Shown piece by piece: positions 7,564 through 40,659 of a stretch of 41,078 nucleotides of DNA. The notes under the pieces are model-generated. The model was not told the DNA's origin and searched no databases. It saw only the letters and a list, made by a program, of their open reading frames with translations. Made by a program: the position numbers and the translations under genes. Source of the stretch: Candidatus Methylomirabilota bacterium (GTDB lineage: Bacteria; Methylomirabilota; Methylomirabilia; Rokubacteriales; CSP1-6); assembly GCA_036001065.1 (NCBI GenBank), contig DASYUQ010000012.1, positions 1-41,078 on the forward strand, written 5' to 3'. Every line of letters begins with the position of its first letter. Within the stretch, counting starts at the first letter, position 1.

Positions 7564-8268
7564 ATGGACACTGGATGGGGCCGTGGAGTCTGGTCGGCGC
7601 TGAGCCAGCTGAGTGACCGGCTGGCGACGGTGCTGCCCGGGCTGCTCGTCATGTTCACCCTCATCGCGCTCGGGCTCGTCCTGGGTTGGGTCGTGCAGCT
7701 CGTCCTGACCCGCCTGGCGCGCGCCATCGGCTTCGACCGCCACACGGAGCGCTGGGGCGTTGCCTCGTCGCTCCGGCGCTCGGGGATCCTCCGGACGCCC
7801 GCCGACGTGCTCGGCATCCTGGCCTTCTGGGCGATCTTCGTCCTGTTCGCGAGCCTGGGCATCGACGCGCTCCGCGCGCCGGGGGCGCCGGGCGCGACGG
7901 TATTCCTGCTCGCCTTCCTGCCGCCGCTCTTCGCCGCCGTGCTGATCCTCATCGTCGGCTGGCTCGTCGCCAACTTCCTGAGCCAGGGACTGCTGATCGC
8001 CGCCGTGAACGCCGGGCTGCCGGAGGCGCGGCTGCTGGCCCGCGCCGCCCACTGGGGCGTGTTGCTCTTCGCAGGCGCCACGGCGCTCACGCACCTCGGC
8101 ATCGGCAAGGAGATGGTGCTGGTGGCCTTCGGCATCACGTTCGGCGGGCTCGTGTTCGCGCTCGCGCTGGCCTTCGGCCTCGGCGGGCGCCACATCGCCC
8201 GCGAGCTGCTGACCCGCCGTCTGCGACGCGACGCTCCGCCCGAGCGCGAGCGCCTGACCCACCTCTAG
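7564..8268 (+). CDS. Integral membrane protein, similar to the TM domain of small mechanosensitive channels
   Basis: 234 residues with about five hydrophobic segments, at roughly residues 22-45 (LPGLLVMFTLIALGLVLGWV), 78-96 (VLGILAFWAIFVLFASLGI), 109-140 (VFLLAFLPPLFAAVLILIVG), 160-180 and 186-210 (MVLVAFGITFGGLVFALALAFGLG). The arrangement and the final GLGGRHIARELL resemble the conserved transmembrane-helix repeat family linked to MscS-like proteins, but no cytoplasmic MscS beta-domain follows. AGGGG about eight bases before the ATG could be the ribosome-binding site. The TAG stop is formed by the first bases of the inserted 88-bp element. Ion-channel activity is not shown. Confidence 0.8.
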   Translation: MDTGWGRGVWSALSQLSDRLATVLPGLLVMFTLIALGLVLGWVVQLVLTRLARAIGFDRHTERWGVASSLRRSGILRTPADVLGILAFWAIFVLFASLGIDALRAPGAPGATVFLLAFLPPLFAAVLILIVGWLVANFLSQGLLIAAVNAGLPEARLLARAAHWGVLLFAGATALTHLGIGKEMVLVAFGITFGGLVFALALAFGLGGRHIARELLTRRLRRDAPPERERLTHL

Positions 8269-8353
8269 TGCCGTTCCAACTATTCGCGCCTAGGAAGGCA
8301 CCGTGTACGTCGTTCGTGGACAGATTTAGTATCAACAAGTTGGAACGGCACTA
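8266..8353. mobile_element. 88-bp MITE-like element, copy 1 (IS630-type ends)
   Basis: The element has perfect 15-bp inverted ends, TAGTGCCGTTCCAAC (8266-8280) and GTTGGAACGGCACTA (8339-8353). It has no coding capacity beyond chance frames. Both ends sit in CTAG (8265-8268 and 8351-8354), consistent with a TA target duplication. A second copy at 26898-26985 differs at one base. The TAG at the left end is also the stop codon of the membrane-protein gene. TA duplication at CTAG is the known behaviour of the IS630 family, so a transposase supplied in trans by an IS630-like element is inferred. Confidence 0.85.
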
Positions 8354-8379
8354 GGCCGGCGCGCGCGTCGGCGCGCCCC

Positions 8380-16867: not shown

Positions 16868-16937
16868 GGGAAGGGGCCTCGACGGCCCCCTCCCATGCCT
16901 CCCCCAGGATCGATGGCGGCGGCAAAGCCGCCGCTCG
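16868..16937 (+). repeat. Double-hairpin intergenic element, copy 1
   Basis: It starts four bases after the TAG of the DGQHR gene. Stem 1: 16868-16878 pairs with 16884-16894 (11 bp, one A-C mismatch, 5-base loop). The single-stranded linker contains CCTCCCCC (16898-16905). Stem 2: GCGGCGGC (16916-16923) and GCCGCCGC (16927-16934) around AAA. The same architecture occurs at 26728. It may be a transcript 3'-end signal or a structured RNA in the leader of the downstream ABC gene. Confidence 0.6.
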
Positions 16938-16956
16938 GACAAGAGAAGAGGTAGAT

Positions 16957-17992: not shown

Positions 17993-18784
17993 GTGAGCCG
18001 CCGCGGTCCCTGGTTCGTACTGCTGCCGCTGGCGCTGCTGGCCCTCTGGCACGTCGCGGTCACCTCGCAGTGGGTGCTGCCGGGCATCATCCCCGCCCCC
18101 GCCCAGGTCGTCGAGTCCTGGTACAAGTGGATCTTCGGCCCGCCGGGCCGGAGCTTGTCGCCCTACTCGGGCACGTGGCTGGCCAACGTTCTCTACTCCT
18201 CGCGGCGGGTGCTCCAGGGCTTCCTCATCGCCGCGGGCGTAGGCATCCCGCTCGGGCTCTTCATCGGCTGGAACCGCCTGGTGGCCAACGTCGTGGACCC
18301 GTCCATCCAGCTGCTCCGTCCAGTCCCCATCACGGCCTGGCTGCCCTTCTCGATCGCGGTCTTCGGCATCTACGACGCGGGGGCGCTCTTTCTCATCGGG
18401 CTGGGGGCTTTCTACCCGATCGTGGTGAACACCACCCACGGCGTCCGCGACACGAATCTCTTGTTGCTCCGCGCCGCCCGGATGCTGGGGGCCGGGCCGG
18501 CGACGATCCTGGGCAAGGTGGTCTTCCCGTCGGCGCTGCCGTCGATCTTCACGGGGCTGCGCCTGGGCGTGGGCGTGGCCTGGACGGCTGTCATCGTCGC
18601 CGAGATGATCGCGGTGAAGTCGGGGCTGGGCTACGTGCTCTGGGACGCCTACTACGTCGGCCGCATGGACATCTGCGTGGCGACGATGTTCTCCGTCGGC
18701 CTGCTCGGCTTCCTGTCCGACCGGCTCATCCTCGTCGCCTCGCGGCTCGTTCTACGCTGGCGGACGCTGGAGGCGCATGCCTGA
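17993..18784 (+). CDS. ABC importer permease, NitT/TauT (SsuC/TauC-like)
   Basis: 263 residues from GTG 17993, seven bases after the binding-protein stop; VSRRGPWFVLLPLALLALWH gives a good first transmembrane helix. About six transmembrane helices are visible. The EAA-type cytoplasmic loop that contacts the ATPase is NLLLLRAARMLGAGPATILGKVVFPSALP near residues 156-185. The end overlaps the ATPase start by eight bases. It forms the inner-membrane channel of the importer. Confidence 0.92.
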   Translation: MSRRGPWFVLLPLALLALWHVAVTSQWVLPGIIPAPAQVVESWYKWIFGPPGRSLSPYSGTWLANVLYSSRRVLQGFLIAAGVGIPLGLFIGWNRLVANVVDPSIQLLRPVPITAWLPFSIAVFGIYDAGALFLIGLGAFYPIVVNTTHGVRDTNLLLLRAARMLGAGPATILGKVVFPSALPSIFTGLRLGVGVAWTAVIVAEMIAVKSGLGYVLWDAYYVGRMDICVATMFSVGLLGFLSDRLILVASRLVLRWRTLEAHA

Positions 18785-19586
18785 GCGACCGCCGCCCGGG
18801 CGTCCCACCGTCCAGGTCGTCGACGTCTGGAAGGAGTTCGTCAAGCGGGGGCGCCGGGTGGAGGCCCTGCAGTCGATCGACCTCGCCATCGAGCCGAACG
18901 AGTTCGCGGCCATCCTCGGCCCGTCGGGCTGCGGAAAGTCCACACTGCTGAACATGGTGGCCGGCTTCGACCGTCCGACCCGCGGCCAGGTGCTGGTCCA
19001 CGGCGAGCCCGTGGAGGGGCCGGACCCGCGTCGCGGCGTCGTGTTCCAGGAGCCGGCGCTCTTCCCCTGGTACACCGTCCTCGACAACATCACCTTCGGC
19101 CCCAAGACGCGCGGTCTCCGCTCCGGCCAGTACCAGCCCCAGGTCGACGCGCTGCTCGAGCAGGTGGGGCTGCGGGGCTTCGAGTCGCACTACCCCGCGG
19201 AGCTGTCGGGCGGGATGAAGCAGCGGGTGGGCATCGCCCGCGTGCTCATCATGGAGCCCCAGGTGCTCCTCATGGACGAGCCCTTCGGCAGCCTCGACGC
19301 CCAGACGCGCTCGCTCATGCAGGAGCTGCTGCTGTCCGTCTGGGAGCGCCACCACCAGACCGTGCTGTTCATCACCCACGACATCGAGGAGGCGCTGCTC
19401 CTAGCCGACAGCGTCTCGGTGATGACGGCCCGCCCCGGGCGGATCAAGAAGCGCCTGCCCGTCGAGCTGCCCCGCCCGCGCGCGCTGGAGATCACCACCT
19501 CGCCCCTCTTCAACGCGCTCAAGCGCGAGGTGCTGGCGCTGATCCGGGAGGAGAGTCTGCGGGCCGCGCGGGACGGCGGCGCCTAG
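18777..19586 (+). CDS. ABC importer ATPase, NitT/TauT (SsuB/TauB-like)
   Basis: 269 residues. Walker A is GPSGCGKSTL near residue 52, the Q-loop lies in GVVFQEPALFPWY, the signature is LSGGMKQRVGIARVL near residue 143, Walker B with D-loop is VLLMDEPFGSLDAQ, and the switch His is in FITHDIEEALLLAD. All catalytic residues are present. The TAG stop shares CTAG (19583-19586) with the stop of the convergent CoA transferase gene, leaving no intergenic space. Confidence 0.95.
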   Translation: MPERPPPGRPTVQVVDVWKEFVKRGRRVEALQSIDLAIEPNEFAAILGPSGCGKSTLLNMVAGFDRPTRGQVLVHGEPVEGPDPRRGVVFQEPALFPWYTVLDNITFGPKTRGLRSGQYQPQVDALLEQVGLRGFESHYPAELSGGMKQRVGIARVLIMEPQVLLMDEPFGSLDAQTRSLMQELLLSVWERHHQTVLFITHDIEEALLLADSVSVMTARPGRIKKRLPVELPRPRALEITTSPLFNALKREVLALIREESLRAARDGGA

Positions 19587-20755
19587 ACCACGCCGGCCCG
19601 GCCGAGATCCGCGATCTCGGCGGGCGTGTAGCCGAGCTCGCGCAGGATCTCGCCGGTGTGTTCGCCGTGCGTGGCCGCGGGCTGGCGGATGGCGCCGGGA
19701 GTGCGCGAGAGCGCGGCCGGCAGGCCCTGCACCTTGATCTCGCCACGCTCGGGATGGCGCACCGGCTGGGCCAGCCCGAGATGCTGCACCTGCGGGTCCT
19801 CGAAGACCTGCTGGATGTTGTAGATGGGGCCCGAGGGCACGCCGGCCTGGTTGAGCGTGTCGATCCACTCGGCGCTCGTCTTCTGCCCGAGCACCTTGTT
19901 CAGCTCTTCGTTCATGGCCTTGCGGTTCTTCGAGCGGTCGGCCAGCGTCTTGAAGCGCGGATCGTCGAGCAGGTGCTTGGCGCCGATGGCCTCGCAGAGG
20001 CGCCGGTACATCACCTGGCCGGAGGCCGCGATGTTCATGTGACCGTCGGCGGTCGTGAAGACGCCGGTGGGGATGCCGGTGGGATGGTCGTTGCCCGCCT
20101 GGGGCGCGATCTCACGGTCGATCAGCCAGCGGGCGGCCTGGAAGTCGAGCATCGTCACCATCGCCTGGAGCAGCGAAGTATGGACCCACTGGCCCCGCCC
20201 GGAACGCTCCCGCTCCAGCAGCGCGACCAGGATGCCCTGGGCGAGGAAGAGGCCGGCGGCGAGGTCGGCGACCGGGATGCCCACGCGCACCGGTCCCTGA
20301 CCGGGCAGCCCGGTGACGGACATCAGACCGCCCATGCCCTGGGCGATCTGATCGTAGCCCGGGCGGTCGCGGTACGGCCCCGTCTGCCCGAAGCCCGAGA
20401 TGGAGCCGTAGACGAGGCGCGGGTTGATCGCCGAGAGCGCCTCGTAGTCGATGCCCAGACGATGCTTGACGTCGGGCCGGAAGTTCTCCACCAGCACGTC
20501 GGCGCGGGCGACCAGCCGCTTGAGGATCTCGACCCCCTGGGGGTGCTTGAGGTCGAGCGTCATCGCCCGCTTGTTGCGGTGCAGGTTCAGGAAGTCGAAC
20601 CCGATCGCCGTCGAATCGCCCTCGACCACGTCGCGCGTCTCGACCTTGATCACGTTGGCGCCCATGTCGGCGAGCTGGCGCACGGCGGTGGGGCCGGCGC
20701 GGGCGCGGGTGAGATCGATCACCGTGATGTGGGCCAGCGGGAGCGGCGCCGCCAT
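19583..20755 (-). CDS. CaiB/BaiF family CoA transferase (class III)
   Basis: 390 residues. It begins AHITVIDLTRARAGPTAVRQ after MAAPLPL. LHRNKRAMTLDLKHPQG lies near residue 68 and SISGFGQTGPYRDRPGYDQIAQ near residue 130. The candidate catalytic Asp is in VGIPVADLAAGLFLAQG near residue 170. Its ATG overlaps the TGA of the hydrolase gene as TGATG, so the two are translationally coupled. It is distinct from the CoA transferase at 1485. A hydrolase-transferase pair suggests conversion of an ester or lactone to an acyl-CoA, but the substrate is unknown. Confidence 0.93.
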   Translation of the reverse strand: MAAPLPLAHITVIDLTRARAGPTAVRQLADMGANVIKVETRDVVEGDSTAIGFDFLNLHRNKRAMTLDLKHPQGVEILKRLVARADVLVENFRPDVKHRLGIDYEALSAINPRLVYGSISGFGQTGPYRDRPGYDQIAQGMGGLMSVTGLPGQGPVRVGIPVADLAAGLFLAQGILVALLERERSGRGQWVHTSLLQAMVTMLDFQAARWLIDREIAPQAGNDHPTGIPTGVFTTADGHMNIAASGQVMYRRLCEAIGAKHLLDDPRFKTLADRSKNRKAMNEELNKVLGQKTSAEWIDTLNQAGVPSGPIYNIQQVFEDPQVQHLGLAQPVRHPERGEIKVQGLPAALSRTPGAIRQPAATHGEHTGEILRELGYTPAEIADLGRAGVV

Positions 20756-21660
20756 CACCGGCTCTGGGCGGGCTCGGCCAGCGGGCCGGGCAGAATCGCC
20801 GAGCCCGTTTGCGACTGCGGATTGCGGCGCGGCCACCGCCCGGCGTCCACGGCGGTGAGGAAGTCGAGGACCGCGCGGTTGAAGGCCTCCGGCTCTTCGA
20901 GGTTGACGGTGTGGCCGGACTTCGGGATGACGACCAGCCCCGCCGTGGCGATCTTGCGCTTCATGAAGATGCCGGGCTCCAGGCACGGATCGTCCTCGTC
21001 GCCGGTGACGATGAGCGTGGGGACCTCGAGCCGCTCCAGCCGGTCCTCGAGGTCGAAGATCGACGGCCGCGTCAGCTGCACGCCGCGCAGGGTAAGCGCG
21101 TGACCCCGGGCCGAGCCAGCGGCGAGCCGCTCGTAGAACTCTTGCCAGCCCTTGGGATCCTTGTCCTTGAACTGCACGCGCGTGGGCCCGTTGGCGTAGA
21201 ACTGGGCGGCGGCGGCCATGCCCTCCTGCTCGAAGCGCCGCGCCGTCAGCTCGGCGTCCTGCCGGAACTTCTCGCGCTCGCCCGGCACGCTGCCGTATCC
21301 GGCGCCGGCGACCACCAGCGACAGCGCGCGCTGAGGATACCGGAGCCCGAAGTGGAGCGCGGCGTAGCCGCCCATCGAGAGCCCGCACACGTGCGCCCGG
21401 GGGATCTTCAGGTGGTCGAGCAGCCCCCGGATGTCGTCGACGGCACGATCCTGGGAGTAGGCCGCCGGATCCTCGGGCACGTCCGACGGCGGATAGCCGC
21501 GGGCGTTGAAGGCGATGGCGCGGTAGCGCCGGGGGAAGAATCGCATCTGAAGATGCCAGCTCTGGGAGTCGCCGGCGAACTCGTGGACGAAGACGAGCGG
21601 CAGGCCCTGGCCGAGCTCCTCGTAGAACAGGTGGACGCCGTCGACCCGCGCGGTGGGCAC
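20755..21660 (-). CDS. Alpha/beta-fold hydrolase
   Basis: 301 residues from GTG 21660, one base after the GreA stop. LPLVFVHEFAGDSQSWH near residues 20-36 carries the oxyanion-hole region (usually HG, here HE). The nucleophile elbow is VCGLSMGGYAALHFGLRYP near residue 92 with Ser in GLSMG. The acid is likely in VTGDEDDPC near residue 222, and the catalytic His is in PKSGHTVNLEEPEAFN near residue 250. The fold includes esterases, lactonases and C-C hydrolases such as the beta-ketoadipate enol-lactonase type. Cytoplasmic, since no signal is seen. Confidence 0.9.
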   Translation of the reverse strand: MPTARVDGVHLFYEELGQGLPLVFVHEFAGDSQSWHLQMRFFPRRYRAIAFNARGYPPSDVPEDPAAYSQDRAVDDIRGLLDHLKIPRAHVCGLSMGGYAALHFGLRYPQRALSLVVAGAGYGSVPGEREKFRQDAELTARRFEQEGMAAAAQFYANGPTRVQFKDKDPKGWQEFYERLAAGSARGHALTLRGVQLTRPSIFDLEDRLERLEVPTLIVTGDEDDPCLEPGIFMKRKIATAGLVVIPKSGHTVNLEEPEAFNRAVLDFLTAVDAGRWPRRNPQSQTGSAILPGPLAEPAQSR

Positions 21661-26721: not shown

Positions 26722-26727
26722 GCTGAG

Positions 26728-26794
26728 TCAGAGAGGGCCTCGCGGCCCCCTCTGAACCTCCCCAGTGGAGTTGCGCCGGCGGAGCCGGCGCTCG
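26728..26794 (+). repeat. Double-hairpin intergenic element, copy 2
   Basis: It starts six bases after the pump stop. Stem 1: 26728-26739 pairs with 26744-26755 (12 bp, one A-C mismatch, TCGC loop). The linker contains CCTCCCC (26757-26763). Stem 2: GCGCCGGC (26773-26780) and GCCGGCGC (26784-26791) around GGA. Compared with copy 1, stem bases changed on both sides so that pairing is kept. Confidence 0.6.
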
Positions 26795-26897
26795 AAACGA
26801 CAAAATAGTGACCGCAATAAGCTCGCCCGATTCGCCGACAGACCCCTAAGCGTTCGCTCCCTGGCCCGGGCGAGGAGGATCGAGAAAAGCCGCAGGC

Positions 26898-26985
26898 TAG
26901 TGCCGTTCCAACTATTCGCGCCTAGGAAGGCACCGTGTACGTCGTTCGTGGACAGATTTAGTATCAACAAGTTAGAACGGCACTA
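26898..26985. mobile_element. 88-bp MITE-like element, copy 2 (IS630-type ends)
   Basis: Identical to copy 1 except for one base in the right inverted repeat (GTTAGAACGG here, GTTGGAACGG in copy 1), so it now has a 14/15 inverted repeat. Both ends lie in CTAG (26897-26900 and 26983-26986). Its right terminal CTA is the reverse complement of the TAG stop codon of the PpiD-like gene. It was inserted 112 bp after copy 2 of the double-hairpin element. Confidence 0.85.
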
Positions 26986-28875
26986 GCTGCGCGGGCCGGG
27001 CAGACGCGACGAGATCTCGATCTTGGCCTGGGCCCGGGCACTGCTCATCCACGCCTGCCACGCGTGGCTCTGCTTGCGCGCCAGGAGCTCGTCGGCGATC
27101 TTGTCGCGCTCGGGCCCGGGCGCGCTCGGGGCGGGGGGCACGCGCTCCCGCACCTTCATCACGTAGTAGCCCTGGGGCGCCTTCACGGGCTCGCTGAGAG
27201 CGCCGACCGGCGTCTTGAGCGCGGCCAGCATGGCGTCACCGGGCAGCCGCTCGGCGGGCCGGGTCCGCGAAAAGCGCGGCGTCTCTCCGACGGTGGCGCC
27301 CACCTTCTGGGCCGCGCCGGCGAGATCGCCGCTCTGGGCGTTGGTGACGATCTGCTTGGCCTTCTCCAGCGCCAGCGCTTCGGCCTTCCGTCGCTTGACC
27401 GCCGTCACCACCTTGTCCTTGATCTCGGCCAGCGGCGGGACGGCGGCCGGCATCGTCTCGACGCTCTTGAGGACGACGTAGCCGGCCGGCGTTCGCACCG
27501 GGACGGACACGCCGCCCTGGGCCAGCGAGAAGGCCGTCTCCTGTATCGGATCGGGGGGCGTGAGGCCGGGCACGCTCTCCTTCCGGGCGATGATCGACTC
27601 CACCGGGCCCAGCCCGAGCTTCCTGGCCTCGGCCATGAAGTCGCCGCCGCCGAGGAGCTTCGCGCGGACCGCTTCGGCCTTCGCCCTGGCCGCTCGGTCG
27701 GCGGCCTCGCTCTGCAGGCGCTGGCGGATCTGCGGGGCCACGTCCTTCAGCGGCCGCTTACCGCCCTCGCGGACCTCCTGCACTTTGATGGCGTGGAAGC
27801 CGAAGGGCGTGCGGACCGGCTCCGGGGAGACCTCGCCCTTCTTCAGCGCGAAGAGCGCCTGCTCGAATGCCGGCACCATCTCGCCCTTGCTCACGAGCCC
27901 GAGGTCGCCACCCCGCGCGGCCGAGCCTGGATCCTGAGAGAGCTCGCGGGCGAGCTTGCCGAAGTCCTGGCCCGCCCGGGCCCGGCGGATGGCGTCCACG
28001 ACCTTGGCCTTCGCCTCGTCCTCCGCCCCGCTGCCACCGGTCTCCGGCACCCGCACCAGGATGTGCGCGGCGCGGACCTGGCGCGGCGTCTCGAACTCGG
28101 CTCCGTGCTCGGCGTAGTACTTCTGGACCTCGGCCTCCGGCGCGGGTCGCGTGAAGTCCTTGGGATCGACGGCAACGTAATGGACGCGGCGCCGCTCGGG
28201 CTGACGGAACTCGGTCGCGTTGTCTTTGAGGTACGCCTGCAGCTCGTCGTCGGTCGCGCCCGCGGAGGCCATGAGCGGCGCCAGCTCCACCAGCGCCCAG
28301 GCCGCGCCCACCTCCTCGCGCATGTGGACGAACGCCTGCTCGATCTCGCCCTCGGAGACCTTGGCGCCACCCCGGACGGCGTTCTCGACCTTCAGCCGGG
28401 TGAGGCGACGGCGTCTCTCCTTCTCGAACGCCGCAGTGGTGTAGCCATTGCGCCTGAGAACATCCTGATAACGGCGAAGCGTGAACCGTCCGCCTTCCTG
28501 AAACTCAGGAATCGCGTGGATGTGTGCGTTCAGTTCGTCGTCGCTGATTTCCAAACCCTCTGCGCGGGCCCGCTGCATTATCAGCGCTTCCTGGACGAGG
28601 TCCTCCACGACCTGATGGGGCAGTCCGAACCGCTCGGCCATCTCCGGCGAAAAGCGATCGCGCAGCATCTGGGCGTACGCGGCCAGGTAGTCCTGGTACC
28701 GCCGCTGGTACTGATCGATGCTGATCTCCTCGCCGTTCACGGTGGCAACGCTCGCCCGGCTATCGCCGCCGCGCCCGCTGGCGCCGAAGACGAAGAGCGA
28801 CGCCACGAAGGCGGCGATGACGAGCAGAAGCCCCACCTGGAGGCCTCGGCGGTAACGACGCATGAACGCGATCAT
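26983..28875 (-). CDS. PpiD-like SurA_N/parvulin-type peptidyl-prolyl isomerase, membrane anchored
   Basis: 630 residues. RRGLQVGLLLVIAAFVASLFVFGASG (about residues 9-34) is a single N-terminal membrane anchor. A SurA_N-like chaperone domain follows (VNGEEISIDQYQRRYQDYL, VVEDLVQEALIMQRARAEGLEISDDEL). The parvulin domain starts at ETPRQVRAAHILVRVPE near residue 258 and includes SQDPGSAARGGDLGLVSKGEMVPAFEQALFAL. A second parvulin-like module, less conserved, fills the C-terminal third. It helps fold exported proteins at the periplasmic face of the inner membrane. The stop codon lies in the end of a mobile element. It is downstream of trmI in the same direction (24-bp gap). Confidence 0.93.
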   Translation of the reverse strand: MIAFMRRYRRGLQVGLLLVIAAFVASLFVFGASGRGGDSRASVATVNGEEISIDQYQRRYQDYLAAYAQMLRDRFSPEMAERFGLPHQVVEDLVQEALIMQRARAEGLEISDDELNAHIHAIPEFQEGGRFTLRRYQDVLRRNGYTTAAFEKERRRRLTRLKVENAVRGGAKVSEGEIEQAFVHMREEVGAAWALVELAPLMASAGATDDELQAYLKDNATEFRQPERRRVHYVAVDPKDFTRPAPEAEVQKYYAEHGAEFETPRQVRAAHILVRVPETGGSGAEDEAKAKVVDAIRRARAGQDFGKLARELSQDPGSAARGGDLGLVSKGEMVPAFEQALFALKKGEVSPEPVRTPFGFHAIKVQEVREGGKRPLKDVAPQIRQRLQSEAADRAARAKAEAVRAKLLGGGDFMAEARKLGLGPVESIIARKESVPGLTPPDPIQETAFSLAQGGVSVPVRTPAGYVVLKSVETMPAAVPPLAEIKDKVVTAVKRRKAEALALEKAKQIVTNAQSGDLAGAAQKVGATVGETPRFSRTRPAERLPGDAMLAALKTPVGALSEPVKAPQGYYVMKVRERVPPAPSAPGPERDKIADELLARKQSHAWQAWMSSARAQAKIEISSRLPGPRS

Positions 28876-40476: not shown

Positions 40477-40593
40477 GTAGAGTCGAGGCCGAGCGCGGTG
40501 GCGTACAGGACCGGCGGCGCCTGCTGCGAGCGGCGTCTTTCGTGGCCGCTCTCGCCGAGAAGTCCATCGCTCCGTCTCGCGTCCCCGCTCATC

Positions 40594-40626
40594 GAACCGG
40601 ACGTGACCATTTCGGTCATCCGGCTC
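40594..40626 (-). ncRNA. Group II intron domain V
   Basis: 33 nt on the minus strand. It starts GAGCCGGA and ends TCCGGTTC, which pair fully with one G-U. The upper stem is TGACC/GGTCA capped by a GAAA-type loop, and a two-base CG bulge lies at the normal place. The AGC catalytic triad is present. Usual length is 34 nt; one base seems missing on the 5' side of the upper stem. Confidence 0.8.
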
Positions 40627-40659
40627 TCGGACGGGTTTCACGGGCGGCATTCGCAGGGG

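Follow-up and report, generated by a model that had tools for sequence, protein, structure and literature searches.

The window, as the whole stretch of 41,078 nucleotides analysed here is called, contains two nearly identical 88-bp inverted repeats, each of which rebuilds the stop codon of a gene. What are these repeats, and which enzyme moved them? Copy 1 (positions 8266–8353, plus strand) is identical to the genome consensus and comprises an 86-bp element, GTGCC...GGCAC, with the duplicated TA counted on both sides. Its terminal inverted repeats (TIRs), TAGTGCCGTTCCAAC at the left, lie at 8266–8280 (plus strand) and 8339–8353 (minus strand). Each end sits in a CTAG: in the left one (8265–8268) the TAG is the stop codon rebuilt for the gene upstream, and the right one (8351–8354) is the duplicated target. 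The upstream gene (7630–8268, plus strand; start possibly as early as 7519) encodes a membrane protein that matches Pfam MS_channel_1st_1, a mechanosensitive-channel-type helix. Copy 2 (26898–26985, plus strand) has CTAG at 26897–26900 on the left and at 26983–26986 on the right, the latter reading on the minus strand as the TAG stop of a PpiD/SurA-like peptidyl-prolyl isomerase gene (26983–28875, minus strand; Pfam SurA_N_3 and rotamase). The copies lie 18,632 bp apart and agree at 87 of 88 bases, or 89 of 90 with the CTAG frame included; the TIRs are perfect, or carry one mismatch in the case of the right TIR of copy 2 (GTTAGAAC). Four TIR matches are present in the window, against 0.41 expected from shuffles, and CTAG is scarce (15 occurrences versus 58 expected). 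An earlier note on this DNA had described the pair in these terms, including the 15-bp inverted ends, the CTAG at both ends of both copies, and pre-insertion CTAGs that held the TAG stops at 8268 (plus strand) and 26983 (minus strand); the description is confirmed.

As RNA, the stretch 8265–8354 would form a hairpin with a 17-bp stem directly 3' of the stop (MFE about −41 kcal/mol; z about −6.5 on either strand). Insertions could, by this folding prediction, act on mRNA 3' ends through the hairpin. Intergenic double hairpins at about 16869–16940 and at 26726–26848, with many matches in the genome of a sister species, look like members of a further repeat family that sits behind genes; the stretch at 26726–26848 is absent from the orthologous site in that species. 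On the minus strand at 40477–40628, Rfam gives a weak match to a group II intron (41.3 bits; cut-off, 40).

The source genome is a fragmented draft (4.46 Mb in 239 contigs, rated 100% complete). The 15-base end occurs in it 352 times at no more than one mismatch, against no occurrence of the reversed control. A genome search with the 88 bp, as the earlier note had proposed, found at least 40 copies that score 100% across the full length. Among 62 distinct elements cut out, 57 are 88 bp long; 39 of these match the window copy exactly, and 14 depart from it by one base. The outer flanking base is C for all but two of the exact end matches genome-wide. The 88-bp DNA query had no match in plasmids, and no TIR match was found in viral contigs.

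Empty sites come from the sister species G001, the only other genome of the genus searched, which is 93–96% identical over long syntenic blocks and in which neither the 88-bp element nor any of its ends was found. Four orthologous sites are readable, and all are empty: window site 1 (CTAA), window site 2 (one CTAG), and two sites on contig C15 (one CTAG each). For window site 1 and both C15 sites the alignment runs ungapped from one flank into the other. For window site 2 it extends through the CTAG on the right, and the left flank differs by further indels. Three other sites are too diverged to be read clearly as empty CTAGs, and one lacks coverage. The empty alleles indicate that insertion converts one CTAG into CTAG-element-CTAG, in agreement with the TA duplication first suggested. 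A single CTAG had been expected at empty sites; this held at three of the sites checked, but not at window site 1, with its CTAA. Because the sites in G001 are empty, the burst looks younger than the split between the two species. Two proposals made from the window are supported: a mobile, non-autonomous inverted-repeat element, and recent movement.

Stop codons are a preferred target. Statistics were based on 53 sampled target sites, with 50 unoccupied CTAGs from the same sequence as controls; genes were called with a home-made codon model seeded on Pfam-supported genes, and single assignments are uncertain. Occupied targets coincide with stops of predicted genes in 35 cases (TAG, with one TAA), whereas 13 are intergenic and 5 are internal (three of them no more than nine codons from the gene end). 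Unoccupied CTAGs are stops in 17 of 50 cases (odds ratio 3.8, p=0.0016; against intergenic sites only, p=0.008). The proposed preference for gene ends is therefore supported, as is the recreation of the TAG stop on insertion: CTAG is scarce in this GC-rich genome and frequently part of a TAG stop, and since G is the first base of the element, the host stop is restored exactly. CTAG rarity accounts for part of the bias, and what goes beyond it may reflect selection, extra targeting, or both; the suggestion of spread at gene ends almost without cost is plausible. One unoccupied CTAG in the window (19583–19586) supplies the TAG stop to two genes that converge on it (18777–19586, plus strand; 19583–20758, minus strand).

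The 88-bp form itself contains a CTAG (8290–8293 in copy 1), which is a target for nested copies elsewhere in the genome. A 25-bp left piece occurs four times in a row before a further copy on contig C54 and once on C168, and a 61-bp right piece adjoins other copies on C26 and C86. These pieces fit repeated insertion into the internal CTAG, and so would provide a second view of CTAG targeting. (Ligation of the 25- and 61-bp pieces, fragment by fragment, by a CTAG cutter was also considered; nested insertion is equally explanatory and simpler.) Tandem copies with one CTAG in common are found on C3, C93, and C116.

What, then, is the autonomous partner? The genome also has 318-bp elements that share both the CTAG and the ends of the 88-bp form; their sole ORF, of about 93 codons, encodes a GIY-YIG nuclease. 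Five complete copies were read (C5, C33, C116, C187, and C202), and there are 21 matches when pieces at contig ends are counted in. Some copies are damaged: an internal stop interrupts one, and substitutions are seen in others. The ORFs match PF01541 at 38–43 bits (cut-off, 22.6), and the protein had no named family in NCBIfam. The nearest solved structure is 1zg2 (UPF0213; E 1.6e-4), and Foldseek with an AlphaFold model of moderate confidence (pLDDT 74.5) gave 1zg2 and Slx1 as top matches. Residues Y3, Y5, G18, R24, R26, H30, and E62 are invariant across five homologues. Judged by its sequence and model, the protein is a GIY-YIG superfamily member of the UPF0213/bacterial Slx1-like type and a predicted nuclease.

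The ORF ends in ...KLERH-TAG: translated in frame, the right TIR gives KLERH, and the CTAG supplies the TAG. PF01541 matches in the genome lie in or adjoining these ends, save one in a long frame without them, presumably UvrC. The 88-bp form corresponds, with few differences, to the left 43 or so and the right 45 or so bases of the 318-bp form, and so looks as if it arose by internal deletion from a close variant of that element. It has the makeup of a MITE: short and non-coding, with 15-bp TIRs, a target duplication, and a 318-bp parent with the same ends. Probably, then, the 88-bp repeat is a MITE of a 318-bp TIR transposon that is moved by its own GIY-YIG nuclease, a stand-alone protein of UPF0213/bacterial-Slx1 type.

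Gene and ends also stay together in other lineages. The same 20–26 base ends occur in genomes of two other families of the class, with middles that mostly differ. A scan of GTDB genomes identified GIY-YIG relatives at 58–74% identity in four MAGs (Terriglobia and Acidobacteria, both in the Acidobacteriota; Gemmatimonadetes; and Methylomirabilis), and all four sit in 320–324-bp elements with the same ends. At locus L117 both ends have the same change (GCGCCG). At L116 the target is CGAG, with GA on both sides, and the ORF extends past the usual stop, as expected if the target supplies the stop. The GIY-YIG locus of the same-class genome G057 is common to a Methylomirabilis MAG, and viral contigs contained one GIY-YIG locus at 45%. 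The Terriglobia protein (75% identical to that of the source genome) is closer than the Methylomirabilis protein from the element's own class (64%), which points to horizontal transfer. Between homologues dN is 0.19–0.42, whereas dS is greater than 2 or saturated. Since dN is far below dS, these comparisons place the protein under purifying selection in several phyla, maintained while travelling with the ends. It is from this co-inheritance that we infer the GIY-YIG protein to be the mover.

Another GIY-YIG protein of the class (32–41% identical) belongs to a second element family (L090, L121, and L149–L158), 422 bp long and with different ends, GTGCTTGATTTCATATG. These ends were found in three genomes of one genus, together with derivatives of 51, 117, 160, 190, and 191 bp. 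At all seven distinct loci (eight records) an identical triplet, TCA, TGA, or TAA, stands on both sides in C-TNA-G, which makes the TNA repeat a true 3-base duplication. At six of the seven loci this triplet forms the TGA stop of an ORF longer than 100 codons, compared with stops at 3 of 14 unoccupied CTNAG sites (p=0.016, with small numbers and a rough ORF criterion). Both families begin with GTGC, and the stop is therefore rebuilt. The second family also bears on the length of the duplication, because a 2-base and a 4-base duplication are formally ambiguous at perfect CTAG sites. The matched triplets, along with loci L042 (TTAG/CTAG) and L043 (CTAG/CTAA), favour duplication of the inner bases only and disfavour a strict 4-bp CTAG duplication. 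The GIY-YIG domain of I-TevI needs CNNNG (PMC4065259), and C-TNA-G fits this motif, although the likeness is a resemblance only.

Two further GIY-YIG genes of the class (L095, 1376–1890; L101, 1411–1775) are found next to, or flanked by, copies of the common GTCATTGCGAG...GCAATC repeat, a CGTC-type REP; chance adjacency is possible. CGTC-tagged REPs have been reported without a dedicated transposase (PMC3733652).

Alternatively, a conventional transposase, IS5/IS427-like or IS630-like, might act in trans or have since been lost, leaving the GIY-YIG protein as a passenger or homing-type helper. The profile search covered two transposase families, PF13358 and PF01609, which leaves this reading some room, and IS870 likewise combines a CTAG target and TA duplication with a target-supplied stop codon. 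However, PF13358 (DDE_3) had no match in this genome rated 100% complete, and the single match to PF01609 (DDE_Tnp_1), on C149, lies in an unrelated context at a locus from which these ends are absent. No DDE_Tnp_1 transposase was found between the same ends, as would characterise an IS5/IS427 (IS870) element. Moreover, across several phyla, GIY-YIG is the sole product encoded by every complete gene-bearing element found to have these ends, and the independent second family shows the same architecture with other ends. A conventional enzyme in trans is thus an unlikely mover.

An ordinary IS630 MITE, as the earlier note proposed, is far less probable still. TA duplication and the CTAG context do suit IS630 in general, and L042 and L043 display the TA duplication at NTAN that is an IS630 trait. 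Yet the full-length IS630-type transposase with matching ends, sought by PF13358, was not found; what carries those ends is the 318-bp element, whose gene encodes GIY-YIG in place of a DDE_3 transposase. The IS630 attribution is accordingly not supported. Least credible of all is a fixed regulatory or terminator hairpin kept where genes end, or a RAYT-mobilised repeat of the REP type: just 3' of stop codons the transcript would fold into a strong stem of 17 bp, but the element is absent from the sister species at every readable site, and its near-identical copies have a target duplication and 15-bp TIRs, unlike REPs.

If a GIY-YIG nuclease is the mover, it would recognise the GTGCCGTTCCAAC ends and cut both donor and target. 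C|TA|G would be opened with a 2-base stagger, such that the stagger flanks TA in the first family or TNA in the second. The element, GTGCC...GGCAC, would be joined in, and TA would be duplicated upon fill-in by host repair. The element's own gene would then take its stop from the same CTAG as the restored host stop. We infer both the stagger and this order of cutting and joining. As a counterpoint, a single-domain nuclease of 93 amino acids would have three tasks, namely binding the ends, cutting, and promoting joining, a combination that would be unprecedented.

A broader proposal is also favoured, with less assurance: that stand-alone GIY-YIG proteins may act as transposases for bacterial transposons of very small size (about 300–430 bp), a new and widespread class whose members insert at C-TA-G or C-TNA-G, very often on stops, and spawn MITEs. 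Perhaps they are also the missing mobilisers of CGTC-tagged REPs. The DNA transposases known from prokaryotes are DDE, DEDD, HUH, tyrosine, serine, or Cas1 enzymes, and a precedent for GIY-YIG with bacterial TIR elements was not found in the open-access library searched. The enzyme type would be new for such elements if the GIY-YIG role is confirmed. If true, this would represent a new transposition chemistry in one of the smallest autonomous mobile elements known; a role for some members of a common, unexplained protein family; and, for orphan repeats in bacteria, a testable proposal for the enzyme that mobilises them. Insertion at stop codons with exact restoration of the stop would be a neat, low-cost niche.

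How do these elements compare with known systems? IS630 and Tc1-mariner transposons and their MITEs share the TA duplication, the TIRs, and the short non-autonomous derivatives, but they carry a DDE transposase; here DDE_3 is absent, and the gene inside encodes a GIY-YIG nuclease. IS870, of the IS5/IS427 group, has a CTAG target that supplies its own stop codon, as here, but it has a DDE enzyme and is about a kilobase in size, compared with a 318-bp GIY-YIG element. Homing endonucleases such as I-TevI, and Penelope elements, likewise place a GIY-YIG catalytic domain in a selfish element. Homing, however, is directed to a single allelic site and is not known to involve TIRs, target duplication, or MITEs, in contrast to the hundreds of non-allelic sites seen here; Penelope has a reverse transcriptase, which the 318-bp element lacks.

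UPF0213 and the bacterial Slx1-like proteins (1zg2; PMC1564403) provide the closest solved relative and the fold of the element's protein. Stand-alone bacterial Slx1-like domains are treated as an ancestral nuclease form in the 2006 GIY-YIG survey, and in the parts of it consulted a mobile TIR context for Slx1-like proteins was not found (PMC1564403). Finally, bacterial MITEs and REP/RAYT systems (PMC10969869, PMC3733652) are likewise small, high-copy, inverted-repeat, and near gene ends. Known MITEs rely on classical transposases, and GTAG REPs rely on tyrosine (RAYT) enzymes (PMC10969869, PMC3733652). REP/RAYT systems pair a GTAG-tagged short palindrome with a Y1/HUH RAYT, whereas the repeat described here has 15-bp TIRs and a CTAG duplication.
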